DNA from: Trametes villosa
Lineage: Eukaryota > Basidiomycota > Agaricomycetes > Polyporales > Polyporaceae
DNA: 64,000 nt
Assembly (NCBI GenBank): GCA_002964805.2
Contig: PUDQ02000113.1
Location: forward strand, 1-64,000
Direction of reading: 5' to 3'
This document shows, piece after piece, positions 1,427 to 27,108 of the stretch (position 1 is its first letter; every line of letters begins with the position of its first letter). Position numbers and translations under genes: made by a program. Below the pieces are notes generated by a model. It did not search any database. It was given only the letters and a program-made list of their open reading frames with translations, and was not told where the DNA came from.

Positions 1427-4400
1427 TTACTCGTCGTCCTCGGAGTCGCTACTATCGACGTCGCCGTCTACGTCGCGCGCGCCGTCGAGTAGCTCTGGTT
1501 CCGGGTCGTCGAGGCCATCGTCGTCGCCCTCCGTCAGCTCCGCTAGCCTCTTCTGCGAGATGTCCGCGAAGTTCTCGGGGAGCGGAATAGTGCGTCGCGC
1601 GGCGTAGGGGATCAGGCGGAACGCGCCCACCGCGCGATGTAGCACGGTCCCATCGAGTTCGCACAGGACGTACGCCCCGCCGCGGTTGCGCGAGATCACT
1701 ACCAGAGGGCCCGTGTACCGTGGTCGCATCTTGCGGTTGAGTGACTTCTCGATCTGCGTGTGTCGCATCAACACCAGCGCGCCAGCCTTGAAGTCGTAGT
1801 CTCGGATCGTGGCCGCGTGGTCGCGCTCGAACTTGCGCGCCGCCTCCACTCGTGCGCGATAGACTCTCGAGTTCAGCGTCGCGAGCTGTTCTTGACGCTT
1901 TTGTAGCTCGGTCGCGCGACGTGCGAGCAACTCTTCGGTGGATAACAGCCCGACCGGTGGCGGTAGTAGGTACGTAGCCTCCGCGACGTCCAGGGGGAGG
2001 ACCGGGTGGCAGCCGGTCACCGCGAAGTACGGCGAGCAGCCCATGCGCCGTCGGATCGTGACGCGCTCCGCCCAGAACGCGTAGTGCGCGTACTGCGACC
2101 ACTTGTGCTGGTCTCCGCCCGCCGCCTTGTAGAGAACCTGGCGCGTATCGAAGTGAGAGCGCTCCACGATGCCGTTCGCCTTCGAGTTGTACGGGCTGAT
2201 GCTGATGCGGTTGAGGTTGTAGCGCTCCTCGAGCTTGCGCGCTGCGCTGATGAACGCGGAGCCGTTGTCCGTGATGATCTCGACTATCGCGCCCCAGCGG
2301 CAGAGTAGCTCCTGGAAGAGGAAGTCACTGACGGTCTTCTCGTTTTCCGAGCGCAGCATCCGCCACTCCGGCCACGCTGACACGGAGCAACGCGCGACGA
2401 CGATGATCGTGTATCCGCCTGAGCTAGGCATCTTCATGATGTCGATGTACCATCGTACGCCGAGTCCGCCCGGGCGAGCGACGACTGGAGGGATCAGGAC
2501 CTTGCGGTGCTGGCGCGTCTGACAGATATGGCAGGTCTTGACATACCACGTCGCGTCGTCGCGGAGCGAGGGCCACCAAAAGCGCTCGGCGACGAGATGC
2601 AACGTTGCGTAGCTGCCGCGGTGTCCTATGTCGTTGTGTGCCGCTCGGAGAGTCGCCAGCCGTCTCGCGCGCCAGACTACGAGCTTGTGTGCGCCTTGCG
2701 AGTCCTTCTTCCACAGTCGCTCGCCATCCACGAAGAAGCCTTGCGCGTACTTGATGAAGGTGCGGTACTCCGCGTCCTTGAGTCCCTCGGGTCGCTGGAG
2801 CGTGCGCAACCAGCTCGCGACGCGTTCTAAACGCTCGTCCGCTCGCCGTGTGTGCTCCGCGTAGGGCATCTCTGCCTCGCCCTCCGGTTCTGGGATCGCG
2901 CGCGTGTCGTCTTCTGATGCGAACCTGACCTTCGCTCGTGCTTTGGCCCTCTTCGCCCTCGTACTCGGCCCTCCTGCTTCGCTCGCGTTCTGTGCCTCCG
3001 TGTCCTGCGCCTCCTCCCCCTCGCTGAAATCGTGACCGTCCTCGGTCGCATCGGCGAGAGCGAAGAGGTGTATGGGGTCGCGTTCGCGAGGAGGGCGGCT
3101 GCGCGGTCGCGGAAGTAGCTGGTGCAGGAAGCCGTGGATCTTGTCAATCCAGTCCTCGAACTCCTCGCCGTCTTCTTCGTCGACTTCAGGGTCTCCGGGT
3201 TGTCGCGGTCGTCGCGAGAGACCGTCAGGTCCGTGGGAGGTTCCGGGAACGTGAACGAGATGGAAGTGGAAGGTTAGGATTCCGAGGATCCAGCGGTTTA
3301 TACTCGCGCTGGGGGCGAGGTCCGGATTCTGTAGCATTCCGCGGATGTACCGCGCGTCCACTTCCACTACTAGCCTGCGGATGCCGACTAGGTAGAGCTT
3401 CGTCGCTTGCAGGGCGCGGAAGAGGCCATAGAGCTCCAGTTTTGGTTGGGAGAAGCGCGCCTCCCGTTCGTTGAGCGTGATCGACCCGAAGCGACTGTAG
3501 AACCGCTTGCGCGGGTCCTCTTCATCGCACTGGCAAAGGTGGTAACCAACGGCGATGTAGGACGTGTCGACCGCGAGGATGACGGGCGCGGGGGAGTCGT
3601 AGTTGATCGCGCGGAGGGCCGGGGACTCGAGAAGCGCTTGGCGCAGATCATTCATCGCGGCGAGCTGCGCCGGTCCGAACTCGAAAGGCGCGTCCTTGCG
3701 CGTGAGCTGGACTAGCGCGTTCGCGCGCTTCGCGAAGTTGCGGATGAAGATGCGCACTACGCCCACCGTTCCGAGGAAGGCGCGTACTTCGGACAGGTCC
3801 TTGCACGGCCCCCAGTTCTTGATCGCTGCCACGCGCGACTCGTCCGGTAGACGTCCCTCTGGTGTGCACCGGTGCCCGACGACCATGATCTCGCGCGCGC
3901 AGAGGATCGACTTCGTGCCCGAGAAGGTGCCTCCCGCGTACTTCATGCGCTGCACGATACGGTTCATGTTGCCGAAGTGCTCCCAGACGAAGCGCCGAAT
4001 GCCTGGGTTCGCGGGGATCGTCTCGTACGTGCCGTCCTCGCCGCGATAGTCGGATTCGGGGCCCTTGCCAGGTACGTCGTCGATGTAGGGTACCGTGAAC
4101 TCGGGGATCTCTGGTCGCAAGATGTAGGTGACGTCCTCGTGGAAGATGGGGACGGAATTGGACCATCCCATCGGCAGCGTACAGTGACGCAAGGCTCCGA
4201 AGGGGGTCTGGAAGGTGGTGAGGTCGCGCGAGGTCTCCGCGATCATCCGCTCGTCGTAGCCGACATAGAGGTCGAGGATCGCGCCGCACGCGCGCCCTCC
4301 GAACTGCTCTGCGAGGTAGTCGGGCGTAGGCGGGACCCCCGAGTGCTGGATCGTGACCTTATTGAGCGGCTCGAGACTGTGGACGATGCGCAGAGACTTC

Positions 4401-4939
4401 CCGTCCTTCTTGAGAACGCAGAACCAGCGCGACCGATAGGAGGAATTGGAGGGCTCGTACACGCCGGCCGCGATCTTCTTCTTCAGCATCTCGCAGACCT
4501 GCTTGTAGAGCCCTGGAGGGATGGGGATATTGCGCTCGACCCACGGGGTGTGTGGGAGGACGGGGAACTCCACCGGCGGGAAGTACTCCGGTTTGAAGCA
4601 CCCGCGCTCCGCGTCGCTCCAAGCGAAAGCGTCGTGGTGTAGCGTCATGAAGTGATGGAGAAGGCGCTTCTCCTCTGGCCAGAGGAAGTCGCCGCCGTGG
4701 AGCTTGTCGAACGCCTCCTTCCGCTCCGGCGTGTAACGGCCGGTGGGTACGAACTCCGGCGGGCGCGGGTCGAGCCGGGGCATGTTCGCGAGCGGGTCGC
4801 CGCGAATGTCGCGCTCTATGCGGAACTGGGTTGGCACGGTGCCGAGGACGGCGCGGACCTTTTGCGCGACGGGCTTGTACTTCTTCTTCGACTGGATGAA
4901 GGCCGCCGCCGTGTCGCGAGAGTCTTCGCGCGCGTATAC
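1427..4939 (-). CDS. pol: Ty3/gypsy Pol: reverse transcriptase, RNase H, integrase (3' part of interrupted pol)
   Basis: About 1170 residues without a stop. In order: reverse transcriptase (approx. residues 90-370) with catalytic YIDDV near 288; RNase H (approx. 430-560) beginning AVDTSY; an HHCC integrase zinc finger (approx. 765-800, with CHICQTR); and the integrase core with DIMKMP, TDNGSAF and VERSH, 34 residues between the second Asp and the Glu. The tail is acidic (EGDDDGLDD...DSEDDE). It copies the element's RNA and inserts the cDNA. The first codons abut the KDZ transposon, whose 7-bp target duplication CGTATAC (4933-4939) encodes the V-Y of VVYARED. Protease and gag lie beyond the insertion, so the protein cannot be made as one polyprotein now. 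No internal stop or frameshift suggests the copy was young when hit. Confidence 0.95.
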   Translation of the reverse strand, partial: VYAREDSRDTAAAFIQSKKKYKPVAQKVRAVLGTVPTQFRIERDIRGDPLANMPRLDPRPPEFVPTGRYTPERKEAFDKLHGGDFLWPEEKRLLHHFMTLHHDAFAWSDAERGCFKPEYFPPVEFPVLPHTPWVERNIPIPPGLYKQVCEMLKKKIAAGVYEPSNSSYRSRWFCVLKKDGKSLRIVHSLEPLNKVTIQHSGVPPTPDYLAEQFGGRACGAILDLYVGYDERMIAETSRDLTTFQTPFGALRHCTLPMGWSNSVPIFHEDVTYILRPEIPEFTVPYIDDVPGKGPESDYRGEDGTYETIPANPGIRRFVWEHFGNMNRIVQRMKYAGGTFSGTKSILCAREIMVVGHRCTPEGRLPDESRVAAIKNWGPCKDLSEVRAFLGTVGVVRIFIRNFAKRANALVQLTRKDAPFEFGPAQLAAMNDLRQALLESPALRAINYDSPAPVILAVDTSYIAVGYHLCQCDEEDPRKRFYSRFGSITLNEREARFSQPKLELYGLFRALQATKLYLVGIRRLVVEVDARYIRGMLQNPDLAPSASINRWILGILTFHFHLVHVPGTSHGPDGLSRRPRQPGDPEVDEEDGEEFEDWIDKIHGFLHQLLPRPRSRPPRERDPIHLFALADATEDGHDFSEGEEAQDTEAQNASEAGGPSTRAKRAKARAKVRFASEDDTRAIPEPEGEAEMPYAEHTRRADERLERVASWLRTLQRPEGLKDAEYRTFIKYAQGFFVDGERLWKKDSQGAHKLVVWRARRLATLRAAHNDIGHRGSYATLHLVAERFWWPSLRDDATWYVKTCHICQTRQHRKVLIPPVVARPGGLGVRWYIDIMKMPSSGGYTIIVVARCSVSAWPEWRMLRSENEKTVSDFLFQELLCRWGAIVEIITDNGSAFISAARKLEERYNLNRISISPYNSKANGIVERSHFDTRQVLYKAAGGDQHKWSQYAHYAFWAERVTIRRRMGCSPYFAVTGCHPVLPLDVAEATYLLPPPVGLLSTEELLARRATELQKRQEQLATLNSRVYRARVEAARKFERDHAATIRDYDFKAGALVLMRHTQIEKSLNRKMRPRYTGPLVVISRNRGGAYVLCELDGTVLHRAVGAFRLIPYAARRTIPLPENFADISQKRLAELTEGDDDGLDDPEPELLDGARDVDGDVDSSDSEDDE
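4933..4939. repeat. Left target-site duplication of the KDZ transposon
   Basis: CGTATAC, identical to 18825-18831. Extending to 8 bp gives one mismatch. In the gypsy frame (minus strand) both copies encode V-Y, so one copy belonged to the uninterrupted pol. Confidence 0.8.
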
Positions 4940-5105
4940 CACCAGTAGGTGTAGACTAGATATGACTTAACCCTGCTGTGTCTGTAAACGACGTTACAGT
5001 TTCCCCTGAGATTCCAGGCGCTGACCTTGCTGCACACGACATGTCGCGTTGCGACATGTCTTCACGCAGGAATCTCTGCTACGGGAACTACTGCACAAAC
5101 TATGT
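4940..5105 (+). repeat. Left terminal inverted repeat of the KDZ transposon
   Basis: About 165 bp that align, at roughly three quarters identity by eye, with the reverse complement of 18660-18824. Best conserved are CTAGATATGACTT (4956-4968) and the block with two GACATGTC palindromes. The outermost 8-15 bp match poorly. Confidence 0.85.
5038..5060. promoter_or_regulatory. Paired GACATGTC palindromes, candidate transposase binding site (left)
   Basis: GACATGTC at 5038-5045 and 5053-5060, start-to-start 15 bp. The right end has the same pair with the same 15-bp spacing while surrounding bases have diverged. A binding role for the transposase is inference. Confidence 0.55.
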
Positions 5106-5134
5106 CGCGCCAACCTCACGTGCGCGCGCCCCGT

Positions 5135-5775
5135 CTCCGACGTGCCCGCTCCCCGCTCCCCGCTCCCCGCCGCCGTCCGCTCGCGCCGTCCGCGCCCCTC
5201 CGTCCGCGCCCCTCCGCTCGCGCCGTCCACGCCCCTTCGCTCGCGCCCCTCCGCTCGCGCCGTCCGCGCGCCCCTCCGCTCGCGCCGTCCCCGCCGCCGT
5301 CCGCTCGCGCCGTCCACGCCCCTCCGCTCGCGCCGTCCGCGCGCCCCTCCACTCGCACCGTCCCCGCCGCCGTCCGCTCGCGCCGTACACGCCCCTCCGC
5401 TCGCGCCCCTCCGCTCGCGCCGTCCGCCTGCGCCTCTCGCCATCCGCCCGCGCCCGCTGTCCGCTCGCGCCCCCCGTCGGCGCCGCCCATGCGCACGCCT
5501 CCCGCCGTCCGCGCACCTCACGCCCTCCGTTCGCGCCGCCCACGAACCTGCCGTTCGCCCCGCTCGCCGTTCGCTCCGACCGCATTCGCGCCCTCCGCTC
5601 GTGCTGACTGCGCTCGCGCCCTCCGCTCGTGCCGACCGCGCTCGCGCCCTCCGCTCGCGCCGACCGCGCTCGCGCCCTTCGTTCGCGCTAACCTTGCTCG
5701 CGCTCCCGCCCCCCGACCGCGCCCCTAGGCCCTCTGCTCACCCCGCCCGCACCCTCCGCTTGCGCCGTCCCCGGA
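5135..5775. repeat. Left subterminal GC-rich degenerate tandem array
   Basis: About 640 bp of short units of the CCGCTCGCGCC / GTCCGC type in irregular order, changing toward its right end to longer CGCTCGCGCCCTCCGCTCG-like units. It keeps all six frames open for long runs, producing false Ala/Pro/Arg-rich frames. It lies directly inside the left inverted repeat. Confidence 0.85.
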
Positions 5776-5950
5776 CGTGACGTGAAGCCGCCCCGTCACC
5801 TTGTTGCCCGCGTTGTCGCCTGTGACCAGATATTTGCACGAGATGCCGTCGATTATGTGCCGATGTAGGATAGGAGTAGGAGGATAGATGGAGAGATTGA
5901 TAAGTAGGTTATAGGGTAGGGATGGGAGGTTGTGTCGGAGGAGAAAGCGG
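5776..5950. other. Left-end spacer of the KDZ transposon
   Basis: Short AT-richer, partly purine-rich stretch between the subterminal array and the stop codon of the first cargo gene. It probably holds that gene's 3' UTR. Confidence 0.4.
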
Positions 5951-8761
5951 CTAGCGCCGGCGCTTCCTGGGAATAGGCTCTACCATCGCAGAGCTTCTCT
6001 TACTGTAAAGCGCTGGATGAGAACATACACGAGGTTATCACTTGAACGATGACGTACCTGGGCACCGCCTGCGATGCTTCTGCTGCAGCCGCTCGCACAG
6101 CATCGAGGACGCAGCCGAGAGCGAACGAAATGTCGTCGACAGCGTCCAACCACGCCTGTTGTTGCTCGATCCCGCACGCATGGACTGCACGGCCCCACCA
6201 CGCAAGGCTGTGGAGGAACAGTACAAGCCCCGTCGGCCCGCAGACGTTCAAGACTGCCCAATCGGTGTCGGGGTCGACTCGATGGACGTATGCACCGCTT
6301 GAAGGGTCCACCGGACGTTGGGGAGGCTGGTTGTGGCACCACCAGGTCCACCACTGCGCCTGGAACTGGGAGACGTTCTTGAGGGGGAAGTCGTCGAGAG
6401 GCCGGTGTTGCTTCATCCATGAGGCGACCTCTGATGGCCGTCCATCAGTCGCTTTGATGAATCGGCCCCGAGGGGTGAACCCGCCAAAACGCTCGAGCTC
6501 AACCCACGTGCTAACACAGCACTCCCACTGATCGCCCCACCCGCCATCCCCGAGGAGATAGCGGACGACCAGGCGCATGTCGTCCGGGCAGTCGAGCAGA
6601 TGGGGAGTAGGGCGGAGGCGGCTTGATGAACGAGGGGCGGAGGGTCCCCGCAAGGGCTTGGCGGCAATAGTTTGCTGCACGGTGCTCTCGAATGGCCGCA
6701 GACTCGAGGAGGAAAGTCCGTGCGCGGACGTTGATGTGATATCTGAGTCGGGCGTTGACAGCGCGGGAGTGGAGACTGTCAGCGTAGACGGCGATAGAGC
6801 GGGTGTCGACGGGGTGAGCGCCGAGAACGCAGGTGTTGAGGACGGCGGAGCCAGCACGAACGGCGTTGGCGCTGTCGGTGCAAGCCTTGACCCCAACAAC
6901 GCAGGTGTCGAGGCGGACGCAGGCGTACTAGAGCCCAGGGGCGCCGATGGCGCAGCGGTATGCATTAGCGCTGGAGGTGGCGTGGGCGGCGTGTGGGGCA
7001 CAGAAGTCTGCAGCGCCGTATGCTTGCGGCGCGGCGGCATTGAGGGCGTTGAGGGCTCAAACGGCGCGGAGAGAGCGCGAACACGCGGGGGGCTTCCGTC
7101 AACGCCACGACTCTGGCCAACATCGAGCGCAGCGCGCAACGACGGGAGCGGCCGGGGTGTTGTGGGGCTATCCGGGGCTGGTGGCTGCGTCGGCTGAGCC
7201 TGAGGTGGCCGCGGAGTCGTGATGCTGAACGGGCTGGGGCTGGCAACCGGCTGGGATAGTAGGTCCGTCAGACAGAACGCCGAACGGAGGGGGCTTGGAG
7301 TTGGGGTGGATCCTGGCGTCGAAGGACGGCTGGCAGCCGCACGAGCCGCAGCATGGGCTAGGGGGGATAGGACGGGGCGCGCCGTCGACTTAGCAGCAGC
7401 AGGGGTGGGAATGCTGGCTTGACCGGAGAAGGGCGACGGGGGCGGCGGTGTGCCGGCGGACATAGATGGGCCAGCCTCCTCCGATGAACCCGTGAGCGCT
7501 CCTGGCAACGCCCGAGAGCGACAAACGTCCTCTGCTGCATGTAGACGGTTAGTATGTGCGCACGAAGTTGCTATAAACACAAACAACTCACAGTAGCACG
7601 CGTGTGCAAATCGTATCATAGACTTCGATATTGTAGCATAACCGGCCTGGTCGTAATCAGGCCAGAGCCTTGGAGAGAGCTCCTCCGACCTGCCAGAGTG
7701 AACGCTACGCCTCGTCAGCATGAATGCGGTGCACGACAGTAAACGAACTCACCCATGAAGCTCTATTGCCCCCCCATTCCGTGCCACGGGGCCGGCGAGC
7801 AGTACGGAGACGTTCATACCCAGCCGGCCTGAGAGGTAATCTGCGAAGGGCCCGAGCCATTTACTAACGGCCTCAAGCTCCCTGCGTACCCGTCAGCGTA
7901 TGAAGAAGAAATATAGACTATGACATACCTGTCGAAGTCTTCCGGTGTAGAAGGGCGCGCCGTGGCTGACGTGGAGGCGTGCCGGGCGGCTGCGACCTCC
8001 GCCTGGTACTCCGCCTCCGCCTGCTGCTTCAGCCCCGCCCGAAACTCCTCGCTCTCCTCGGCGAGCAAGCGTTTGGCCGTTGTGTTGAGCACGTTGACGA
8101 ATCGTGGGGGAGGCGCTCCCTGGGCCTTCGCATCTGCGCTGAGTCGCGCGAAGTCGACCTCGACGACCGGCTTAACTCGGGCTTCATAGTAACGGCGTTG
8201 ATAGTATTGATGGAGGGGAACGCGGCGGGGAGCTTTCGACTGCCAGGAGGTGAAGTCGCGGAAAAGCTTTTCGACGGCATCCACCTTGTCGGTGGTCAGC
8301 GTCTTCTGGCCGTGATACCGAAACCATCGCTGTATCTTCTGCACGTAACAGGTCAGTTAGGCAGGATGGCAGTAGGGCAGGACAGCACTTACGTCACGAG
8401 CGGTGTGGTAGAACTTGCTCCGGTGGGCCTTCTCCTCCTCAGACAATCCAGCATCGTCGAGAACCTTGTCCAAGTCGACTTCCGTGGGATCGTCGCCGGC
8501 TTCAGGGATGTCGGTCTCCACCGGGGTATTCCAGCCGTACTTCTTGATGAATAGAAGGGCCACGTTGTCGTAGAACTTGGAGGCCTCGTTGAGGTCTTCA
8601 GCCGTCCTCCAGGCCTCGAGGCGAGTCTCCAGGAAGCGATACTTCGTACCAGTTGCCCAGCGGCGCCCATCACCTTCGGTCGGGTCGGCACTAGGGGCCT
8701 TCTTCTCCTTCTTCTCCTTCCGCGGGCGAGGTTGAACGACGCCGGTACGCTTTCTCCCCAT
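5951..8761 (-). CDS. Large conserved mushroom-family protein of unknown function, KDZ cargo (6 exons)
   Basis: Model: complement of join(5951..6002, 6058..7534, 7592..7689, 7753..7881, 7929..8338, 8393..8761), 844 aa. All introns are 47-63 bp with GT..AG ends and phases agree throughout. N-terminal about 300 residues: basic start (GRKRTG), then a helical region with YRFLETRLEAW, FIKKYGWN, KIQRWFRYH and DFARLSADAK, then VSVLLAGPVARNGG and a PRLWPDYDQAGY block. The middle is a long Ser/Thr/Pro-rich spacer. A C-terminal domain (approx. 650-820) has LVVRYLLGDGGWGDQWECC, WVELERFGGF, GRPSEVASWMK and WWTWWCHNQPP. The last short exon adds a basic PRKRRR end, a likely nuclear signal. I recognise the type from many mushroom genomes as a multicopy family without assigned function. 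It is transcribed divergently from 9191. Confidence 0.82.
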
Positions 8762-9190
8762 TGGGACGCGAAGAGATGGGGAGGGGATGGGGAAGGAGGG
8801 TCATCCGGCAGGTCGAGAACACGACAATTATGGGGGTTTGCGCTTGCCGCGCGAGCGTCTCTGCCCATGAGAATGTGAATGTACAAAAGAGGAAATCATC
8901 GCTACCGCTCACGTCGTCTGCAGTGAGCTCCTCTCCTCTCGGCCAACCACATGTCCTCGCTTGGACGGAGACTCTCACAACGTACGAGCGCCATTTCACC
9001 AGCCAACCGCGTACCATCCGCTTCCAGTTCGCATCTCTTGGGGCCTCCGGAAATGACCGGCGAGAGGTCTATTTAAACCGCTCTGTTGCGCTCGAGCTCT
9101 GCCATCCCTCTTCCCCTCCTTCCTCCTCCATCTCCTGCAGCGGGCAGCTGCCCCTAGCCTACACGCTCCTTACCGCCTCTCTGCTCCATC
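8762..9190. promoter_or_regulatory. Divergent promoter region in the KDZ transposon
   Basis: 429 bp between divergent start codons. TATTTAAA at 9070-9077 lies 121 bp before the plus-strand ATG and is a good TATA candidate; pyrimidine-rich sequence (CTTCCCCTCCTTCCTCC) follows before the ATG. Confidence 0.55.
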
Positions 9191-10557
9191 ATGGCCTCCC
9201 GCTCTGTCGCTGACGCGCACAATGGTGCTGACGATGATGACGGGATGACCTTCGGCTGCATCACTCCGACGTACCGTGCATCGCCCTCGCCTGTTTACTT
9301 AGGCCAATTTTTGGATGAGCAAGCCTTGGCGCACGGTAAGTGACTGCCCAAATCAGCTCTAACCGCCGCCTAACACTTGGACAATAGCGCTCCAAGGTTC
9401 GGTTTGCATCGGGCCCCTTGGCCGCACGGTCGACATCTACGATCGCCGCTTGTACAAGATGTTCGCGGAGGAATTCCCCGACTTGGTCGGGAATTGGTAA
9501 GTCGGCAGCTACGACCGCTGTGTGATAGTGCGACTAACGGTGGCTGTCAGGTTTGAGCACGCATACGCTAACCGGTTCTTCGACACTGCGCCGGAGGTTC
9601 AGCCGACGCCGAGTGCGTCGGCGCGCTTCGCCGTCTTCCGTGCCCTTCCGCCCGGCCCTGGAGTGTACAAGGACTGGTAAGTTTGTGGCAGATTGGACGG
9701 CGAGCTTGCTAACGTCATGGCAGGGAAGAAGTCGCTAAGATTACTGTGGGCGTGCAAGGCAGCCTGTTTCAGTGGTGCGGAAGCCTGCAGGAGGCCGAGG
9801 CCCGCTTGGTGCAGGCCTTGGACATCGGCGAGATCATCGCGACGATCCCGCCGGAGGCAGTGCAGTCTGGGGACACCGCGCTGTGGGCGCGTGCTGTCAT
9901 GCGGTCGCCAATTCCCCGCTTCCACATCCCAGAGGACGACCGCCCGCTGCTGCCAGCGCGGGTGCCGCCTATCAACGAGCACGGGCCGGATGAGATACTC
10001 GACGGCCCCCCGGGTTTGAAGAGGACGTGGCGGCGCTATGCGCCAGGGCGCAAGCCCGTGCTGCCGTGCACGGCGACGGTTGGACTTGGCAGAGGCGCTC
10101 CAGGCTGCGTCGTGCGGGCCACGGGCGTTGTAGCGCCTGATGACGGCTCTGCCCAGGTCTGGACGTACGCGCCGGCGCCCATCCAACGGCCGCCTCACAT
10201 GCCGACTCTGTCGGCGGTCGGGGGGCCGAGCGCGCTGGATGAACGTGTGCTGCATGAACGCGTGTGCCGCCGCGTGCGCACTCCAACGGTGATGCCTCTG
10301 GAGCGCGACGGGCACTACGTCGTGTACCGCGGACGCGTGCCGGGGCTGTACTACGAGGAGTGAGTAGTAATCCCGCTTGTTCGGTATCTGCTAATCAGTG
10401 AGTTAGTGTCGTCCGCCGCTACATGATGTCGGGGTGCAGGTTTGCTCATTATCATCGGTACGACAGCTTCGACGACGCCCTCCGAGCGTTCCGCCTGGCC
10501 CTTCGCGATGGTCATGTAACGGTTGCCGACCCGTCCGAGTGGCAGCCCGCGGCCTGA
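9191..10557 (+). CDS. Protein with two RNase H1-N/viroplasmin-like domains, KDZ cargo (5 exons)
   Basis: Model: join(9191..9335, 9388..9496, 9551..9676, 9724..10359, 10440..10557), 377 aa; all junctions are GT..AG and in phase. Two segments resemble the RNase H1 N-terminal/caulimovirus viroplasmin-like fold. One is residues about 108-160 (RFAVFRALPPGPGVYKDW ... SLQEAEARLVQAL). The other is about 320-367 (HYVVYRGRVPGLYYEEF ... FDDALRAFRLAL). Both have the aromatic-Val, PG-(V/L)Y and EA/DA pattern. In RNase H1 this domain binds RNA-DNA hybrid or dsRNA; no RNase H catalytic domain is present here. The last exon completes the second domain, which supports the fourth intron. The start is the first ATG after a TATA-like box. 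Job in the element unknown; nucleic-acid binding is inference. Confidence 0.82.
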
Positions 10558-12151
10558 GTTTATGTTTTCCTGCTTTTGTTAGCTCTGTCGCTCTTGTGTT
10601 GTGTCTATGTACATTGGACTTGTGTTACCCCCACCAATATACCCGTTCCATGGTATTATATCTGGAGTGAATGTGATGCAGTGTGAGAGCCTGGATTGAA
10701 TGTCTGGGTGTGCAACTTTTGTGCTAGAGTTGAGATGCATCGGAACCTGAAGTGCTGAGGCATCATGTACGGTTTAACGGAATCTGCTCTTGAAGGGTGC
10801 AGGACCGTCGACAAGCTAAGGAGTGGTGCGTGAAGATATGAGCTCGAGAGCGGGTTGCCATTCTATCCGGGTGCGTGCTGTGAGGGAGAGAATGTGTTGT
10901 CGAGATACCAGCCTGCGTTGCGGCCGGAGGTTCGCGCGTAGTGCTGCTGCTGCTCATAAGCACGACATTTGCTTATCCCCCCGTTGTGCTTTCAAGAACT
11001 TGAAGGACGTACTATCCAGTTTCTGCGTGACCTTGGGTTCTTGCGGGAAGTCCATCTCTGTGTAGTAGTGCATCTACGGTACGCTGGAGTACTTGTTCGT
11101 GGATGTCGAAACGTTACTTACATGCAACACCGTACGCATCCAACCGTGCCAACTGCAGCTGCGCTCTCTACTACGTCCAACTCGGTATCACAACCTCTGG
11201 CAACAAACTGTGTAAATCTCTCAACAACATGGCCGTGCTTCCCTATCTCCCGCTAGGACCTTCGCTCGGCCGCGTGAACGGCGAAGTCTTGATTGTTCAA
11301 ACTCGACTTGGAAGTACTAACCTCACGTTCCCGTCGTTCCAAACGGTGCATATTTATAAAGCTCGGGCGCCGTGGCTACGATAGTATTTACGAGGCCCAT
11401 GTAGGGCGTATTCAGGCGTACATGAGTGCGGGAATATAAAGATGGATTTCCTGCCATTACCCGCCACTGGTTGCCGTGGGCTTTGAGCAGCCTGCCAGTG
11501 GTCGGAACCGGCGAACACTCATCACCTAGGCTCCGAGGTCCGAGCGTCCTTTCGAGTAAAGCAGCCAGCGTACTCTCCGAAATGAGAGTGAATTTGTGTA
11601 GTCGTTAGTCTTGAGCGAGCCGCAGGAGGGTGCTCGGAGAAGGGCGTGCTACTAGTCGACGCTAGTAGTAAACTTCAAAGAGCTTTAGCAGAACTCACAA
11701 CACGGGTCTTACGCAAATGCCTTACTACCATTAGGCCGAGGGGCTTAAGACGGAGAAGGTTACAACGACAGGATTCTCCTTCAAAGGAAACGCATACTTA
11801 TGTTGAGCAGGTGCTAGTACCTCCGACCGCGAAGTTCAATAGCTGCGGCGTGACAGAACCCCTCTGTTGCCATAATGGGACGGCTATAACCGTTACGCTG
11901 GCGGCTGTCACACCGCATTTTCACCTCTCCCTCGTACCTCGCTCATCCCCGACACCCCCGAACCTGGGCCTGTAAGTTACTCCCGGGCTCAACGTCCTAC
12001 GCGTTGGCACGCCTCGGGGAAGGGCAAGAACTGGTCGCTGGGTCACACTATGGCCCTACGGCTTCGTTCGAACCTCTTTCTTGAGCGTGTACAACGCGTC
12101 GGCTCTTTCCTTGCGCCCGACGGACCTTACTGACGCGCCGTCTGCTTCAAC
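10558..12151. other. 1.6 kb without a supported gene inside the KDZ transposon
   Basis: Less GC-rich than the flanking genes and with only short frames. It probably holds the 3' UTR of the upstream gene and the leader of the dioxygenase gene. An undetected multi-exon gene cannot be excluded. Confidence 0.4.
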
Positions 12152-13929
12152 ATGCACGCGTCGCGCTATCTGAAAGATGGAGTTAGGGGCGGTCAGTGTC
12201 GTTGCCTTCAGCTTCCTACAAGTTTTGCTCAACGTGCTTCCCTGCAGGACGCCGGCGGCCAGATTCGCTCGGTGGTGCAAGTGCTCGAAACCGACGCCGA
12301 TACTGCGCGGCTTGTGGAGCTAGCACTGGGGATTCCGGAATCTGGACTAGACGACTGGGCGCTGGAGCCCCTTACCCCTCTGCCGTCGCCTTTCGCCTCG
12401 CCGACAGCGTCACCCTCTCTCTCGCCTGCCTCGCCTGTCCTCGACCCTCCCGCTTTGCCGTCTGCTCTGCCGCCGCTGTACCAGCTTTCGCACCCCTTCC
12501 CGTCGCTCTCCACCTTCGCTGGCCACGCCAACAGTACTCAAACTCGCCCCCCGCAGGCCCCGCCTCTACCACAGCCCCTCGGCACCTCTTCGAACGCGAA
12601 GACGCGTGCAAAGGACGGCAAGCGGATACGTCGCCAGGCGAAACGGATCGCTGCGCGCGGCGACCCGTTCTCAGCCAAAGTCAAGGCTGCCGCCGCTGCC
12701 AAGTTCGTCGCCTCCGCGGTATCCCAACCAGTACGCTCGTCCTTGGACGTCAAGAAGCTCCCAATCGCCGTAGGAGGATATGTCGGCGTGAATCAAAAGG
12801 TTAAGAAGGATTTGTTCACTCTGGAGGAGCTGCGGGCAGAGGGCTATGGGTATTACGCGTGGGACGGGGTGTGAGTATGCGAAGCTTCTCTTGGGGAGCA
12901 GAACGGCTCACGCTCGCGCACGCCGGGTAGTCGCCCGTTCGTCATCACAGACAAGGACGGCCTTGTCGTCGCGCTCTTTGCGGGGCAACCGAAGGACCCC
13001 GACTGGCCCTCCGTCGTCCAGGAAGCTAGCCGCGCGCTCGCTATTGCCGCAGATCTCTGCAGCTTCGACGACAGCGATGTAGACCACCGGCGCGGAAAGT
13101 TTGCTACCCTCGCGCGGGGCATATCGTTTGGGGGAGGGCGTAAGGTTTGTGCTACCTGCCGCTAGCCCGGGACTTTGCTAATAGTTGGTTCAGGCTCCGG
13201 GCAGAGTTGGAAATAAGTCGAAGAACGAAAAAGCGCTGCGCGAGCTGTGCGCCAACCCGGCGATCGGGAGGATTGCGGGGTTTGGCAGCAGTGCGTAGGC
13301 GTTCGTAGCTGCCAGGTGCTGTGCTGACGCGGCCAGCAGACATGCTAGCGACTTACGCCCCGCTGGCGTATGCAAACATGAGGGACCGGCTCTCCCAACT
13401 GTTCGCCCATCACCCGTCCCTGCGCCTCAACTTTCCGAACAGTATCTACCCCGCCGTCAGCATCAACTTCGGCCCGTCGACAGCCTGTTACCCGCACACC
13501 GACGCCGCGAACGACCCGTGTAATTGGTGCCACATCACGGCCCTCGGACAGTTCAACCCTCGAACCAGCGGACACATCGTTTTACATAACTTGAAGGCTG
13601 TCTTTGAGTTCCCGCCCGGCTCCAGCAGCCTCATACCGTCCGCGATCTTTGAGCACGGCAACGTGCCCGTGCAGCCGAACGAAACGCGGCAATCGCTCAC
13701 GCAATACTGTGCGGGCGGCCTTTTACGCTGGGTCGAGTGCGGGTTCCGCACGCTAGGCGATTTCAGCCGGAGCGACCCTGGGGGGAAAGCTGCGTTCGAC
13801 GCCTCGCTGAAGGACCGCGCCAGTCGCTGCATACGGCGTTTCTCCCACATCGACGCCCTCGCTTCAGGAGCAAGGATGACGGATGGAGAGAAGGGGAGGC
13901 TTGCGGTGGGAGGGTTGCTTGGCGGCTAG
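12152..13929 (+). CDS. TET/JBP-family 2OG-Fe(II) dioxygenase, KDZ cargo (4 exons)
   Basis: Model: join(12152..12870, 12931..13144, 13194..13290, 13340..13929), 539 aa; introns are 49-60 bp and in phase. The N-terminus is Pro/Ser-rich with a basic patch (KRIRRQAKRIAARG). Then come a WDG-VRPFVITDKDG segment and a region with RRGKF, ISFGGG and NPAIGRIAGF. The double-stranded beta-helix core has NFPNSIYPAVSINFGP, iron ligands H396-x-D398 in YPHTDAAND and distal H449 in IFEHGN, and R460 in ETRQSLTQY as the 2-oxoglutarate-binding arginine. This matches mushroom TET/JBP proteins, which oxidise modified bases in DNA (5-methylcytosine, for some also others). The third intron removes an in-frame TAG at 13297-13299; its acceptor could be 3 bp earlier. 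The 5' start is the least certain part. Removing DNA methylation from element copies is a plausible role, not shown by sequence. Confidence 0.88.
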
Positions 13930-14202
13930 TCAAGAGAGGCTAGCGGTTTTAGGTGAGCTCACTACTCGTCTCAAACGGCCTGCAATCTTACGTGTCCGCT
14001 AGGTATCACGTCTGTACACGTATGTTGTCTGCGAATACGCCTGCGAATACACCACGCCGCCCGTTGCGGCTACTTTTCTGTATATAGGTGAGCACAGGTG
14101 CCCCCTCCCGTTTTAGGCCTCTGTGCTGTTTCGTCAAGCCCCAGCCCCTGCCCGCCTCTCCTACCGCCCCTCCTCTTTCCCCTGCCTCCTGTATCCTCTG
14201 CC
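13930..14202 (+). promoter_or_regulatory. Promoter of the KDZ transposase gene
   Basis: TATATA at 14081-14086 lies 122 bp before the transposase ATG, almost the same distance as the TATA-like box before the 9191 gene. Pyrimidine-rich sequence follows. Confidence 0.5.
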
Positions 14203-17200
14203 ATGCGCCAGCGAACGAACAAAGCCGCCCGCGGCAAGGCGCAGGCGACCGGCTTTTACACGCCCCGTCACAACGCCTCGCGATCATACTCGATATCAGG
14301 CGACGGGCGGCGCAAAACAACGCTCACAAAACAGTTCCTCGACTACCAGTCGGTCGCGCCGCTCGGGAATCCTGCTCCAGCAACACAGCCCTCCTCGCAG
14401 GTAGTACCTCCTCCGGCAGGCGGTGTGCTGCTCGACTCTTCTCTCGGCGACGAACGCCCTTCTCCCGAGCGAGTGCCAGGGCTTAACGGCGTTGCAGTGG
14501 CGACGAAGGCGCGTGCAAAGCGTTACGAAAGCTCGGTGAGTCGTCATGTGCCCCTTGTTATAGTTTTCTCAACAGTGCCGGCGCTGTGCTGTTAGGACGA
14601 GCCGTTAGCCACATGGAAGCCGTTTCGAGACGAATACCTCGACGAGGTCCTCAGGCTCGAAGGTCGCGGGCGACATGCTGGCCGGCTGACGTGTCCTGCC
14701 TGCGGGACGGGCCGTCCTGAGCTCCGTTGCTGCGAGTGCCTTGGTGGAGAGCTGCTGTGCCAGCCCTGCTGTGTGGCTAGGCACGAGCTGCTTCCGTTAC
14801 ACAGGCTCCAGGTGAGCCCGGCCGTGACTTACCGCCCTTGCTGCGGGTGCTAATCTCTCTTGCAGAGGTGGCAGGGAACTCACTTCAAGAAGGTTGATCT
14901 ACGCGACCTGGGCCTGGTTCTGCGGCCCGCACACCACCGCGGCGAACCCTGCGTCATCACAGCAAAGGTGCACCCGGTGGTGGTCCTGGACGTGAACGGC
15001 GTACACGTCGTCAACGTCCAGTTCTGCGACTGTAAAGCAGACCCTCGCCGAGTTCAACTCCTGCGCCTCAAATGGTGGCCTGCTACACCGCTCGAGCCGA
15101 AGACCTGTGCGACGTTTGCGCTCTTGCGGCACTTCCATCTCCTAAACCTGCAGGGCAAGGTCACCGCGTACGACTTCTATCGGTCCCTGGAGCTCGCCAC
15201 CGATAATACAGGGCAGATGCCACTACCGGTGAGTAACAGAGGCCTGTTCCGTATGCTGTATTGCCGCCATATAACGCTTGCGATTTACAGGATCGTTCGG
15301 TTGCATTTGCTGTCATGGTCCGAGAGTGGCGTCATATCACCATGGCCAAGCGAGCAGGGCGTGGCCACGACGCATCCGCAATCGCAGGGACGGAGCACGG
15401 CGGTCTTGCCGTGGCGTGTCGTGCATGCCCTCGGCCAGGAGTGAACCTCCCACCCGCATGGGCAGACGCTTCGCCGAATGATGCGTGCGTCTTCTGGGCA
15501 TTTACTTAGCAGCCTCATCACCGCGCTGACGGCCGTGAACACAGATGGTTATACCAGCTGATGGTGTCGCAAGACGCCAATTTTCGCTTGAAAAGCCGCC
15601 TTCGTCAGTCGAATTCGCAAGACCCGTGGCTTGCTCCCGGCCTGGCTTACTTCGTCGACGACAAGCCGTACGGAGAATATGTGTCGCGCTTTGCGACGCA
15701 GGAGGACGTGCGTTGCGCACTCCTGTTAGCCCGCCCCCGCTTATTTCTCTGCCTTTCTAGGTCAGGACTTGCTCGGGGTTCGCGGCGTTGCTCAACGCTA
15801 TGACTCGTCACACGAAGGGACTCCGTGCAACAGGCGTGGTCGCGGTGAGCTGCCGCCATGAGTTCTTCATGCCCAAAGGCATGGGAGACATGCAGAAGGG
15901 CGAGCGGTGCGTGCAGCCCCTTCGCTTCTTCATGTGGGCTGACTTCCACCTAGCTGGGCAAACGTCGACTACGTACTCGCATCGGCAGTCTCGGGGATTC
16001 GCGTCAAACTCATTAAAGACTCCTACGACGTCGGATGCGAGCACGAGAAGCACTTCTTCGAGAGGGCTCGCGGTCTCCCGGACGCTATCAAGTTGGAGGT
16101 CCCGCAGGAAGGGTGGACCTTCGTAGTCCCGAAGTTCCACATCAGCGCGCACAAGGAGGCGTGTCAAGCCGTCTTCTCGCCCAACTACACGCCGCACTTG
16201 GGCCGCTTTGACGGCGAGGGCGTGGAACGGAACTGGCCCAAGCTGAGCGGAGGAGCAGCGAGCACTAAGGAGATGAGCCCAGGCGGGCGATGGGAGACTC
16301 TAGACGATTTCTGCGGGTATGCAAACTGGAGGAAAACGGTTCAACTAGGTACGCTTGCCTTACTCCATCCCGCTTGCTAATCTAATTGGTAACTCTAGGG
16401 GACGACCTTCTACGCCTCATGATCGAAGCGATTCCGGAGGTGTCGAAGCATAAGGACATTTTCGCGGCGTTCGACAAGCGGCTCCGATCGAAGCAGCCGC
16501 AGGACGTCCAGCGCTGGGAGAAGATGGTTCTGGATTGGGAGAGTGACCGGCGCAAGTTTCCCAGCCCTTTCTTACTCAAACGATCCAGTACGTTCGCACA
16601 GCCCGCCCTCGTTGCTCGTCTTCTTATTGTTGTGTAGCAATCACTCGCGCTGAGGTTCGACTACGGCTTCTAGCCGCGGAAAACATGGCCGCTGTGAACG
16701 GCGCCGCTGCGGTACACGACGCTGGGCCAAGCTCGTTTGTGGTGCTCGGCCTCGACATAAGAACCTCCCAGTACGTACGCCTTTGCCTGTTGCTGACCAG
16801 GAGCTTACTGCCAACTACGTAGGCTGGCATCCTCGCTCAAACGCAAGGAGTCAGTAACAACTCTACAGCAGATCGATTTTCGAAAGCGGGCGGCAGCTCT
16901 TCTCCAGAAGATCCAGAGGTTTCGAGAGCTCCAAACGGTCTACATGCCCCAGCTTCAGGCGGTTTCTATCCCCGAGCTGGTAGCTACGCCGCCGCTCTCT
17001 GTCGACACCGTCGAAGCATACCCCGTGGTCCTTCCTTCCGACATACCCTCTCCTCACCGCCTCCAACTCTGCGGCGATCAGCTGATCAAGATCGAGGACG
17101 AACTGCAATACGCTGACGCGTGCGATGCGCTCGAGGATCTGCGCCACTCCCTCCGCATGCGCACTGCCTACAACCAGGATAAGGTCGCGAACGTTACTGG

Positions 17201-18044
17201 ACAAGTGCCGAACACACGGGCTCGGGACATGCAGCAATCGGTCGAAGATGCTGTCAAGAACGCTCGTGATCGCTATCGCAAAGCGCGAGGTGCGGTGGAG
17301 CGCCTTCGCGGCCCCGGGGACTGGCAAAATACTTTGAAAGTTCTCGCCGACGTCGACGTCGTGGGGCTCAACGAGCGTGCGCTCACCCGCGAGGAGGTCG
17401 CAGAACACGAACGGGTCCGTGCGCTGGGCCAGTCCGCCGAGGACTTCGGCGTCGCGCTTACAGGTGCCGTGGCTACAGGAGAGGGCCGTCGTACGCTCTC
17501 GTGGATCTGGTATAGCGGGGACGTGCATGCACCTGCTTCCCAACACGGCACCGACCCTGGCCTACAAGATGGTAAGCTGCGCCAAGTTGACGGCGTGCTT
17601 GACCTACCTAAACTGACGTGTTATATATCCACAGCTCTCCGTGTCGAATGGGCTAAAGCACGCGCTCGCGCACACCGGTGGTCGGAGCAGGTCCGGCTGC
17701 TTCATGAAGAGATGCGGCGCGTGCTTGCATCCACGCGGCACACAGCAGGAGAGTGGAACCTCCGTCGATCCAAACGCCAGCAACAAGCAAGTCTTGCCAT
17801 ACCAGTCGACGACACACTTGACGAAGGGCTCAAGGCCTACGCCGATGAGCACGCTGCCATGGAGGCCGAGCTTGGCGACACGTTCGAGAGGAAGTGGGCG
17901 GTCATGAGGAAGATGGCCGAGGCCGCCATCAACGGTACTCTGGAGAGCTCCCAAGCGCCGACCGACGGCGGCGACGTGCCGGTTGTCGAGCTGGAAATCG
18001 CCGCTGAGGATGAGGTTTACGAGGAGGAGGAGGAGGATTTGTAA
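14203..18044 (+). CDS. KDZ (Kyakuja-Dileera-Zisupton) transposase, 11 exons, apparently intact
   Basis: Model: join(14203..14535, 14596..14811, 14866..15228, 15291..15484, 15545..15707, 15761..15906, 15954..16348, 16399..16587, 16638..16770, 16823..17571, 17635..18044), 1096 aa, every junction GT..AG and in phase. Residues 144-180 form the CxC2-like cysteine cluster typical of KDZ transposases (CPACG, CCECLG, CQPC, ending HELLPLH). Then come GVHVVNVQFCDC, QLLRLKWWPATP, WRHITMAKRAGRGHD, CRACPRPGVNLPPAW, the DANFRLKSR block, GDMQKGER-WANVDY, KDSYDVGCEHEK, VVPKFHISAHKEAC, GEGVERNWPKL, ASTKEMSPGGR and RTLSWIWYSGD, ending in a coiled-coil-like acidic tail. These are the conserved landmarks of the family's RNase H-fold core. 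Acidic residues at 477 (NVDY) and 497 (SYDV) are candidates for the active site. It should cut and paste the surrounding element. Confidence 0.95.
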
Positions 18045-18119
18045 CACGGGGATACGGTGCGTCTTCTTGGCTTCCGCGTTCTCCCATTGGCTGACTTGAT
18101 CACAGCACATATAGCGGCG

Positions 18120-18615
18120 GCGAATGGTGAGGGGAGCGCGCGGCATTGGCAGCCGAACGGCCGAGGCAGACGGCTGGAGGAGCAGGGAAGACAACGCGCG
18201 GGGCGCGGACCACGACAGCGGGAGGGCGATGGGAACAACGGCGGGTGCGGCGGCGATGACGACGGCGCGCGGGACGCGGACCACGATAGCGGGTGCGGCG
18301 CGGATGGGGACGGCGCACGGGGCGCGGACGGGGACGGCGAGCGGGACGCAGGCGACGGCGGCGAGCAGGACGCGGACGACGACGGCATGCGGGGCGCGGA
18401 CGACGACGGCTCGGGCGTGCGGGGCGCGGACGACGACGGCTCGGGCGTGCGGGGTGCGGACGACGACGGCTCGGGCGTGCAGGGCGCGGACGACGACGGC
18501 GGGCGCGGCGCGGACGACGACGGCGCGCGGGGCGCAGCCGACGACGGCGCGCGGGATGCGGGCGACGACGGTGCGGGCGGCACGGTGCGGACGGCGCAAG
18601 CGGGGACGGGCGGGA
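18120..18615. repeat. Right subterminal GC-rich tandem array with a 30-bp unit
   Basis: Irregular GCGCGGACGACGACGGC-type units. Three successive near-identical 30-bp repeats, each containing GACGACGACGGCTCGGGCG, occupy about 18392-18481. It lies just inside the right inverted repeat and is the counterpart of the left array, but unit sequences differ between the two ends. Confidence 0.85.
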
Positions 18616-18659
18616 GGGAGCGGGCAACACGGCGGGCGGGACCGGGGAGGAGAGCTACA

Positions 18660-18824
18660 ACGTAGTGTGTGCAGCAATTCCTGTAGCAGATGTTTCCACG
18701 AGAAGACATGTCGTACCGCGACATGTCGCAGACAGCAAGATCAGTGGCAGAAATCTTAGGTGAAATTGTAACGCAGAGCATAGAAACAGTAGGGAAAGTC
18801 ATATCTAGTCCACACGGACGCCTC
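18660..18824 (-). repeat. Right terminal inverted repeat of the KDZ transposon
   Basis: Inverted partner of 4940-5105. AAGTCATATCTAG at 18796-18808 is the outer conserved core. Two GACATGTC palindromes and a TGCWACAGGAA-like block follow inward, as on the left. Confidence 0.85.
18705..18727. promoter_or_regulatory. Paired GACATGTC palindromes, candidate transposase binding site (right)
   Basis: GACATGTC at 18705-18712 and 18720-18727, again 15 bp apart, in the inverted right end. Confidence 0.55.
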
Positions 18825-18831
18825 CGTATAC
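18825..18831. repeat. Right target-site duplication of the KDZ transposon
   Basis: CGTATAC, matching 4933-4939. It lies in the pol linker at the codons for RVVY. Because GTATAC is palindromic it could be mistaken for inverted-repeat sequence, but frame restoration favours a duplication. Confidence 0.8.
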
Positions 18832-19245
18832 GACCCGCACGCCTTCCTCCGTCCTGAGCGCGAACTGAGGGAGAGTGGCTCGGTTATCGCGAACCTCGGG
18901 TTGCGCCGGGTTCGGGGAGCAGTGCGTCGCTACGCGATCCACTCCCGAGACAGGGAAAGAGTCCGAAGCTGATAGAGAGGTCGAGCCAGAGAGACGTGAA
19001 ACCGGTTCGCTTTGTGGGTTTTGTTCTAGGGCGTAGGACGCCGCGATTTCTGGGAGACGGTCGCAAGCAGAGAGATAGAGCGCAGAGAGAGAGAGAGAGA
19101 TAGACGAGTCCGCGGCAGAAGGGGTAACTGGGGTATAGGCACTGATGAAAGGGACATCGCCGTCCGCTTCCACGATCACGGCCACCTCCGCGCTTTCCGC
19201 GTCCGCGAACAGGTACGAAGATGGCGACGCGGGCGCGTTAAGCAC
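18832..19245 (-). CDS. pol: Ty3/gypsy pol linker between protease and reverse transcriptase (interrupted)
   Basis: Ser/Ala-rich open frame starting at VLNAPASPS and reaching the KDZ insertion at EEGVRVVY. Across the transposon the same frame continues as ARED...KKKYKPVAQ of the reverse transcriptase part, so this is the pol linker. It is in the +1 frame relative to the protease, overlapping its end by 8 bases. The overlap bases read CGT GCT TAA C in the protease frame and GTG CTT AAC in this one. This is either a one-base mutation in an ageing copy or a +1 frameshift site. Confidence 0.75.
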
Positions 19246-20438
19246 GAAATCGAGCCTTCCCGCGCGGCTGCGTCGGGATGGTGACGACTTGCCCCGTGTT
19301 CGGACAGTGGAGGGTGATGGTCTGCCCCTCGTCGTCGAGGTTCTTGACGACGCTCCGCGTGAGCACGTCGAACGGTCGCCCGAGCAGCATGTCGTAGGGA
19401 GGATTGCGGATGATGTGGACCTGCAGGTAGAGGACGATGTCCGCGACGCGGAACGGGACGTTCCGAACGAGCCCCAAGGAGTAGTCGCACGCGCCGTTCG
19501 CGGACTGCATGCGGAGCTGGATGGTGGGATCGTACCCGAGTCCCAACGCGTGACAGACTCCTTCGGACATCGCGATGATCATGCATCCCGGGTCGATGAT
19601 CCCCTCGATCCACTCCTTGTTGTCGACCAACCCCGAGATAGAGCGCAGTGCGTGAGACTCCTTCGCGACGCTGAGGGGAGGCGTCTCGTCCTTCGCCGCG
19701 TTGCTGCATAGGTAGACCTCGTACGGGTCCGGGATGACCAAGCTTCCGGGCTCCAGTGGGTCGCCGTGACATGACACGTCGTTCTCGAGATGGTCCGGGA
19801 ATGAGTCGACGTTGGCGAAGTTCACCGACCGCGCGCCCGTCGGGACGCGCTTCGGCGAGACCGCCTCGCGGTACTTCGCGCGCAACTCGGGTGAGATCGA
19901 CAGGAGCTCCTCTGGCGAAAGCGTGATCACCGGCGTCTTCATCGAACGCTCAAAGATCTCCTCCGCGAACTTGGCGTTATAGACCGGGATGTGCGTGCGG
20001 TAGGCTGTCTCGCGCTCGGATTCCTTTGGCTTCGCAGGCGGCGCTCCGAAGTTACGGTTCTGCGGAGGAGCGTACGTCGCGTCGCGCGACTTCGCGAACG
20101 GGTGCTCGCGACTACCGCTCGGCGCTGCTTCGCGGGGCGCGGCAGGCTCCTTGAAGGGGGTAGGTGGCCGGGCCGCTGCGCGTGACGCTTCCTGCTCGCG
20201 CGCGGAAGTGCTGATAGTCGTGTCACGCGCCTCGCGCGCGCCCGAGTCCCGTGGGGGGGCTGGCTGGTGAGGCGGAGGATCGCGCTGGCGCTGCCCTGGG
20301 CTGGCTGGGTTCGACGGGGGGCCGATCCTTTGCTGGGAGGGGTCTCTGGTGCGCGGCTGCTCGGAGCGCGCGTCACTAGAGCGCCCTCGCTCAGGTCGGA
20401 ACGGCGACGTCGGGCGCGAGCGCGGACCCCGGTACAGC
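19238..20438 (-). CDS. pro: Ty3/gypsy gag C-terminal region and aspartic protease
   Basis: Open frame from the foldback insertion (LYRGPRSRPTSPFRPERG) through a Pro/Arg/Gln-rich stretch and HPFAKSRDATYAPP to the first ATG (19942) and the protease, stopping at TAA 19238-19240. The protease active-site motif is IIDPGCMIIAMSE, that is D-P-G where most retropepsins have DTG or DSG, followed by VRNVPFRVADIV and MLLGRPFDV. The last is the usual second landmark. A D-P-G active site recurs in this basidiomycete gypsy group as I recall it, so it need not be inactivating. The protein cleaves the Gag-Pol precursor. Confidence 0.82.
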
Positions 20439-26863: not shown

Positions 26864-27108
26864 GTATGAATGTGCCTGCGGAATGTTACTGCATTGGCGT
26901 CGACATCATATGGCTGCAGTTTTCGATCGCCTACAGCCTCCCTTGGGCCCAGTGCCACTGACCCGCTGAAGGCTGAGGAGACTGATCTGAGCTAATTATT
27001 GACAACTGTCCACTGACAGCATCTACACTGAGCCCTGGGTTACTGGTGGCTACTGAACGCCCCTGAGGGTACTGAGGCAGTGCTCTCAGTGAAATACATG
27101 TTCTTCTG

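Follow-up and report, generated by a model that had tools for sequence, protein, structure and literature searches.

We analysed a stretch of 64,000 nucleotides from the genome of the mushroom Trametes villosa (contig PUDQ02000113.1, positions 1 to 64,000, forward strand; hereafter the window) and found in it a KDZ DNA transposon of 13,885 bp that carries, besides its transposase, a dioxygenase of predicted TET fold and two further genes, and that has inserted into the pol gene of a Ty3/gypsy retrotransposon. The element has moved in the past, its gene set is fixed across the family members found in the genome, and its genes are under constraint. Overall, these observations are best explained, in our view probably correctly, by a KDZ transposon equipped with a transposase, an anti-silencing dioxygenase, and two helper genes. 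A preliminary description of the window had already proposed a complete KDZ transposon with exact borders at 4940 and 18824, a 7-bp target duplication, a position inside gypsy pol, its own TET/JBP dioxygenase, and four genes with full frames, and all of these proposals hold on the evidence given below, the TET/JBP assignment by predicted fold. The principal features are as follows.

4940 to 18824, forward strand: KDZ transposon, whole, 13,885 bp, supported by its borders, by empty sites, and by a second element on contig C1
4933 to 4939, no strand: target site duplication CGTATAC, left copy, present once at empty gypsy sites
18825 to 18831, no strand: target site duplication CGTATAC, right copy, matching the left copy exactly
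1427 to 4939, reverse strand: interrupted Ty3/gypsy pol, 3' piece, with RNase H and integrase domains
18825 to 20470, reverse strand: interrupted Ty3/gypsy pol, 5' piece, with an aspartic protease frame at 19238-20470
5951 to 8761, reverse strand: gene 1, 849 amino acids (aa), exons 8761-8393, 8338-7929, 7881-7753, 7704-7592, 7534-6058, and 6002-5951
9191 to 10557, forward strand: gene 2, 377 aa, five exons, with an RNase H1 N-terminal (Cauli_VI) domain at residues 121-153
12177 to 13929, forward strand: TET-like 2-oxoglutarate/Fe(II) dioxygenase, 512 aa, exons 12177-12191, 12248-12870, 12931-13144, 13194-13290, and 13340-13929
14203 to 18044, forward strand: KDZ transposase, 1,096 aa, 11 exons, with PF18758 and PF18803

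Borders and empty insertion sites

The flanks of the transposon carry gypsy-type RNase H, integrase, and aspartic protease domains. When the left gypsy flank was used as a query against the genome (46.7 Mb in 140 contigs), 12 other matches were obtained, 11 of which are close copies (95 to 100% identity); the twelfth (C1:6636427, 69%, partial) ends short of the insertion site and was excluded from the count. In all 11 close copies, the match to the left flank and the match to the right flank share exactly 7 bp, so that a single 7-mer stands where the window has CGTATAC on both sides of the transposon. This 7-mer reads CGTATAC in seven copies and CGTAAAC in four. An open frame of 368 to 382 codons spans the insertion site in each of the 10 close copies that are at least 1.1 kb long, and two frames are open along the entire length of the eleventh (554 bp). 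Chance is excluded by a second element, on C1, in which the termini recur and a different 7-mer is duplicated.

Between the interrupted gypsy copy and its nearest relative, 10 of 1,169 bases (0.9%) differ, and the insertion, being younger than a young retrotransposon copy, therefore appears to be fairly young. A pair of gypsy long terminal repeats that might have served for dating was sought by comparing the left flank with 18825-30000, and none was found. The same gypsy element seems to have received a further 2.6-kb stretch (window 20439-23046) whose inverted arms of about 909 bp share 84% identity; the insert of the C1 copy also holds an inverted pair (85%) of similar length to these arms.

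A three-member family with a shared gene set

The four genes splice to complete frames of 849, 377, 512, and 1,096 aa through GT-AG introns. A genome search with the left end as DNA query returned four matches, which pair as two complete elements, one in the window and one on C1, each enclosing all four genes. The C1 element is 33,538 bp long and has the duplication GTCGCGC on both sides and the termini of the window element; its genes 1 and 2 are separated by about 19.6 kb of other mobile DNA. All four genes also occur in a third element, on C53. There the contig ends within gene 1, of which 757 of 849 codons could be aligned, and the left end of the element falls beyond the contig; the right end lies at base 6029, and an interruption of about 34 kb splits the transposase. 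The order and orientation of the four genes are kept in all three. According to the preliminary description, ends at different positions in other copies, or cargo genes outside the repeats in every other copy, would mark the gene set as accidental; what we observed was the same four genes in 3/3 family members, with coinciding left ends (2/2) and right ends (3/3). This comparison of ends covered the window, C1, and C53 loci among the 33 TET-like loci of the genome.

A diverged relative (C88:33889-36793) shows about 50% protein identity in dioxygenase and transposase, which stand in the same tandem order. It gave no match to gene 2, and gene 1 was not found there in the homologue search of the genome; the low-complexity middle of gene 1 gave a 27% match, but this overlies the dioxygenase gene and was taken as chance. 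We left this relative out of the three-member family. As a separate observation, bases 11224-13629 of the C1 element contain long open frames that resemble, by eye, a second and different KDZ-type transposase nested there.

Codon comparisons among the three members indicate that all four genes are clearly constrained by purifying selection. The ratio of nonsynonymous to synonymous differences (pN/pS) between the window and C1 copies was 0.40 for gene 1, 0.35 for gene 2, 0.35 for the dioxygenase, and 0.15 for the transposase; the corresponding figures against C53 were 0.44, 0.42, 0.26, and 0.18. All bootstrap ranges (about 95%, 300 draws) stayed below 0.5; the transposase comparisons covered 1,093 and 986 codons, those of the other genes 363 to 827. 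The ratios are rough, because synonymous divergence (dS) between the window and the other two copies is about 1.0 to 1.7 and thus near saturation. Codons reading as stops were dropped beforehand (one in C1 gene 1, two in the C1 dioxygenase, one in C53 gene 1, and one in the C53 transposase), and these may not be real stops, as some alignments cross introns.

Anatomy of the ends

Five ends were aligned, namely both ends of the window element, both of the C1 element, and the right end of the C53 element. The features in the window are the following.

4940 to 4949, forward strand: left-specific terminus CACCAGTAGG (C1 version CACCAGTGTG), with no inverted-repeat partner at the right end
18815 to 18824, reverse strand: right-specific terminus, GAGGCGTCCG when read inwards, identical in C1 and GAGGCGACCG in C53
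4949 to 5105, forward strand: left inverted repeat, from self-comparison and the five-end alignment
18660 to 18815, reverse strand: right inverted repeat, from self-comparison and the five-end alignment
5038 to 5060, forward strand: left paired GACATGTC boxes, 98 bp from the left end, a putative transposase binding site
18705 to 18727, reverse strand: right paired GACATGTC boxes, 97 bp from the right end

The outermost ten bases differ between the sides, with CACCAGT.. at the left (2/2 ends) and GAGGCG[T/A]CC at the right (3/3 ends); further in, starting at about base 10, the five ends can all be aligned as inverted repeats. Within the window element the repeats accordingly begin 9 to 10 bp inside the borders, the outermost bases not being inverted repeats, and fall into two blocks, 4949-4968 versus 18796-18815 at 95% identity and 4971-5105 versus 18660-18794 at 76%. 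A block at +97/98 is strongly kept in all five ends and consists of two GACATGTC palindromes at a spacing of 15 bases. This 8-mer occurs four times in the window, always within the two ends; the C1 element has five copies, four in its ends and one internal, and the other TET loci contain a single copy in 80,865 bases. We infer that the paired boxes are a transposase binding site. GC-rich short tandem repeats, partly inverted repeats of one another, lie just inside the ends (window 5120-5790 and 18198-18640), and repetitive matches are present inside the C1 and C53 ends too.

The KDZ transposase

In a Pfam scan of its first 960 residues, the transposase matched the KDZ family PF18758 over the whole profile (E = 2.6e-56, positions 1-217 of 217) and the CxC2 family PF18803 (E = 1.3e-37), which together with the defined ends and the exact target duplication makes this a complete KDZ transposon. 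As described in the text of Kojima (Biology 2025, PMC12730594), Kyakuja elements produce target duplications of 7 bp, and Zisupton and Dileera elements duplications of 8 bp. Exact 7-bp duplications flank both elements for which both ends are available (window and C1). We use the label "Kyakuja-like" because the window element ends in CA..TC with sub-terminal inverted repeats; the CA..TG termini without inverted repeats are known for two Laccaria families and may not define the Kyakuja branch. Judged by its sequence, the element is apparently an autonomous, Kyakuja-like cut-and-paste DNA transposon.

A dioxygenase of predicted TET fold

The start codon of the dioxygenase was chosen by conservation with the C1 copy. 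The protein contains the H-x-D...H metal triad and the downstream Arg (H369, D371, H422, and R433), which are invariant in the window protein and its 21 aligned homologues (22/22); the metal and oxoglutarate residues are also kept in all 26 distinct genomic loci examined, of 33. Its closest relatives come from Trametes, Cubamyces, and Polyporus. By predicted fold the enzyme is a TET, with a double-stranded beta-helix nearest to the known TETs: among 1,000 realigned chains, the relative P0009 scored 22.5 with CcTet, 19.2 with NgTET1, 18.4 with TET2, and 14.3 with CMD1, all above the other dioxygenases, of which FTO came next (12.5). By sequence family the assignment can barely be made. The Tet_JBP profile PF12851 did not match the window protein and matched 3 of the 22 aligned members weakly (best E = 0.0073); an exon-by-exon search of the entire genome that admitted E values up to 1 gave 0 matches, and since 14 control genomes likewise gave none above the cut-off, that search lacked a positive control. 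Nor was any TET structure found by sequence, whether by phmmer with the window protein, with the 22-sequence profile, or from a second locus, and only the fold comparison provided the link to CcTet.

Five residues after the first His stands an Asn in the window protein, in the 26 distinct loci examined, and in the 21 homologues (for one of these, P0015, it was read from the alignment, the automatic pattern match having fallen elsewhere). The text of PMC11040006 places Gly331 of CcTet and Asn1387 of human TET2 at the same pocket position. Further along, position +11 is Cys, and +9 is Asn in the window protein, with Asp at neither. We take +11 as the equivalent of CcTet residue 337 with some uncertainty, two other TETs appearing to use +9. 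With Asn in place of the Gly or Ser at CcTet 331, no Asp at 337, and H-x-D instead of H-x-E, the sequence fits neither the AG nor the PE type as these are worded in Kojima 2025.

Upstream of the gene (window 12050-12134), an ATG with a short frame (about 28 codons, by eye) and about 30 preceding bases are strongly conserved between window and C1, and translational control through this ATG is possible.

Genes 1 and 2

The gene 1 product has a helical N-terminal region (predicted on the relative P0001), a long low-confidence middle, and a basic C-terminal tail (KRSS..PRKRRR) that is suggestive of nuclear import. It gave no Pfam family above the cut-off and no reliable fold match. Of 7,994 candidates scored, 8 proteins, from Lentinus, Polyporus, and Mycena, were homologues. 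In Lentinus brumalis and Polyporus arcularius, homologues of gene 1 and of the dioxygenase are listed with one shared longest-contig size (15,628 and 15,791, respectively), which suggests that they are neighbours there.

The gene 2 domain matches PF01693 with 26.3 bits against a cut-off of 21. Homologues of full-length gene 2, and of gene 1 residues 1-354, were found in the genome only in the three elements, and the RNase H1 N-terminal domain is found at ten other places. Because five of these ten, all outside the three-member family, lie 1.1 to 2.1 kb upstream of a KDZ transposase match on the same strand (C14:777660, C14:865219, C3:77800, C3:2983923, and C67:101221), the domain looks like recurrent KDZ equipment, encoded either by genes of its own or by the front part of transposase genes. 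The share of the genome that lies that near a KDZ transposase match is 0.5%; the resulting binomial probability of 5e-10 is indicative only, since the 2.5-kb distance was chosen after the distances had been seen and related copies may not be independent. In the predicted Mycena filopes protein P0007, an RNase H1 N-terminal domain and a gene-1-like region stand in one chain; this may be a real fusion or merged gene calls, but it hints that genes 1 and 2 belong together.

TET-like loci elsewhere in the genome

In total, 70 dioxygenase exon matches group into the 33 TET-like loci. At least 11 of these lie within 20 kb of a transposase match, a lower bound because the transposase search scored 48 of 191 candidates. 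The dioxygenase is upstream of the transposase on the same strand in the three-member family and at C88, and the two are on opposite strands at C16, C3, C5, C45, and C93. Two of the latter (C16:578579-584507 and C3:2992536-3001078) show near-identical match patterns and may belong to a family that was copied more recently and has its genes laid out differently. The genome encodes a cytosine-C5 methyltransferase domain at three places.

Proposed mechanism and alternative explanations

In the mechanism that we favour, the transposase would bind the inverted repeats, probably at the paired GACATGTC boxes that lie some 97 bp in from each end, cut at the side-specific termini, and integrate with a 7-bp stagger. 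The dioxygenase would oxidise 5-methylcytosine (5mC) on the element, and probably elsewhere too, which would counter host silencing and keep the transposase expressed. Gene 1 would encode a nuclear accessory protein, and the RNase H1 N-terminal domain of the gene 2 product would bind double-stranded RNA or RNA:DNA hybrids, with both proteins assisting transposition or expression; these two roles are the weakest steps of this scheme. Self-demethylation, which the preliminary description suggested, is plausible from the predicted fold and from published biochemistry, in which CcTet is described as oxidising 5mC (PMC11040006).

It is also important to point out what weighs against this mechanism. 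The fold was predicted on P0009, which is 52% identical over 62% of the query, and not on the spliced window protein, and the model, of high confidence in its core, has a mean predicted local distance difference test score (pLDDT) of 71.5, with 210 of 509 residues at 90 or above. The family as found has just three members, whose divergence from one another is old by the dS values given above, so no recent sister copy proves current activity. CpG depletion was looked for and none was seen, the observed/expected ratio being 1.13 in the transposon and 1.34 to 1.36 in gypsy. CpG-type changes made up 246 of 600 transitions over 28 pairs of eight gypsy sequences (pairs that are not independent), about the share predicted from CpG's 42% of C and G positions; in the dioxygenase-transposase stretch of window versus C1 they made up 210 of 864. 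No mutational trace of cytosine methylation is therefore seen, an absence that neither proves nor excludes methylation. Finally, oxidised cytosine on mushroom transposons has been linked to silencing and not to release, as described in the text of Open Biol 2022 (PMC8889193).

The last point leads to the alternative that survives best, to which we give somewhat less than an even chance: the transposon is the same, but its dioxygenase has a general or signalling role, oxidising methylcytosine genome-wide or laying down oxidised cytosine as a mark of its own. With 33 TET-like loci in the genome, targeting of a single element would be redundant, and the published maps, as far as their texts describe them, place oxidised cytosine on retrotransposons and DNA transposons with nearby genes silenced (PMC8889193 and PMC12730594). 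On the other hand, purifying selection acts on the dioxygenase copy inside each element, so each element would seem to gain from its own enzyme. We regard the choice between an enzyme that frees its own element and one with a broader or signalling role as about evenly balanced.

That the element is dead or domesticated, kept by the host and no longer mobile, seems unlikely to us. There are three copies only, the search with the ends returned no near-identical sister, and one copy is split by about 34 kb, but the window element retains four open frames and a perfect duplication, and its host gypsy copy is 0.9% from its nearest relative. More doubtful still is a specialised form of the favoured mechanism, a four-gene module for anti-silencing and transposition in which a dioxygenase of a TET class not separated before is steered to the element by the gene 2 protein or gene 1 and demethylates that element specifically; the Asn at the 5mC-contact position is as in human TET2, and the enzyme would therefore be predicted to be 5mC-specific, without the 6-methyladenine (6mA) activity of CcTet. 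Transposons do capture host genes, but accidental trapping of a TET-like gene and two other passengers between transposon ends is very improbable here and already contradicted, since all four genes have stayed in one order and under purifying selection in three elements whose dS exceeds 1, homologues of gene 2 and of gene 1 residues 1-354 were found nowhere else in the genome, and linkage of gene 1 with the dioxygenase is suggested in two other species.

Comparison with known systems

Basidiomycete TET/JBP genes were reportedly linked with KDZ transposases and further genes, including one for a divergent HMG-domain protein, by Iyer et al. in PNAS in 2014; that account is said to have lacked borders or empty sites like those shown for the window element. 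Our preliminary description had also presented an intact, bordered, TET-carrying KDZ element as new, and this did not stand: the text of Kojima 2025 (PMC12730594) describes complete TET-carrying Kyakuja transposons with 7-bp duplications in Agaricomycetes, including Polyporales, and already proposes escape from silencing, so the anti-silencing idea is in print. The likeness lies in the combination of a KDZ transposase and a TET gene in one element and in the length of the duplications. There are differences in three respects. Two Laccaria families have CA..TG ends without inverted repeats, whereas the window element has CA..TC with inverted repeats from about base 10; the Kyakuja enzymes have Gly or Ser at CcTet 331 and Asp at 337, where ours has Asn and no Asp; and the text of PMC12730594 that was compared names no extra genes for Kyakuja, with no occurrence of HMG in the main text, whereas the window element has genes 1 and 2. 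To judge by the text descriptions, the ends, the enzyme residues, and the cargo may together set the window element apart as a variant. The window element is a well-documented further example of TET-carrying KDZ transposons, with some unusual details.

CcTet of Coprinopsis cinerea, the mushroom TET enzyme of known structure and activity (PDB 7VPN, 7W5P, and 8JKK), is 11% identical to the window dioxygenase and was not found by the dioxygenase sequence profile at E up to 1. Gly331 of its pocket lets 6mA in, according to the text of PMC11040006, and the window dioxygenase has Asn there. Should this residue pattern hold up, Trametes villosa would have a main TET family whose substrate differs from that of CcTet. 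The anti-silencing factor of the Arabidopsis transposon VANDAL is not known to be a dioxygenase, and the VANDAL transposase is not known to be related. Even so, VANDAL is a DNA transposon with a gene for an anti-silencing factor of its own, and the two systems would be alike if the window element does demethylate itself; VANDAL is cited in the text of PMC12730594.

Taken together, TET-carrying transposons offer a natural test of whether mobile elements can lift host DNA methylation. This locus adds a clean case to them, with exact borders, 11 empty sites, and genes that move as a set and are under selection together; its short conserved end boxes make transposase-binding and mini-transposon assays designable.

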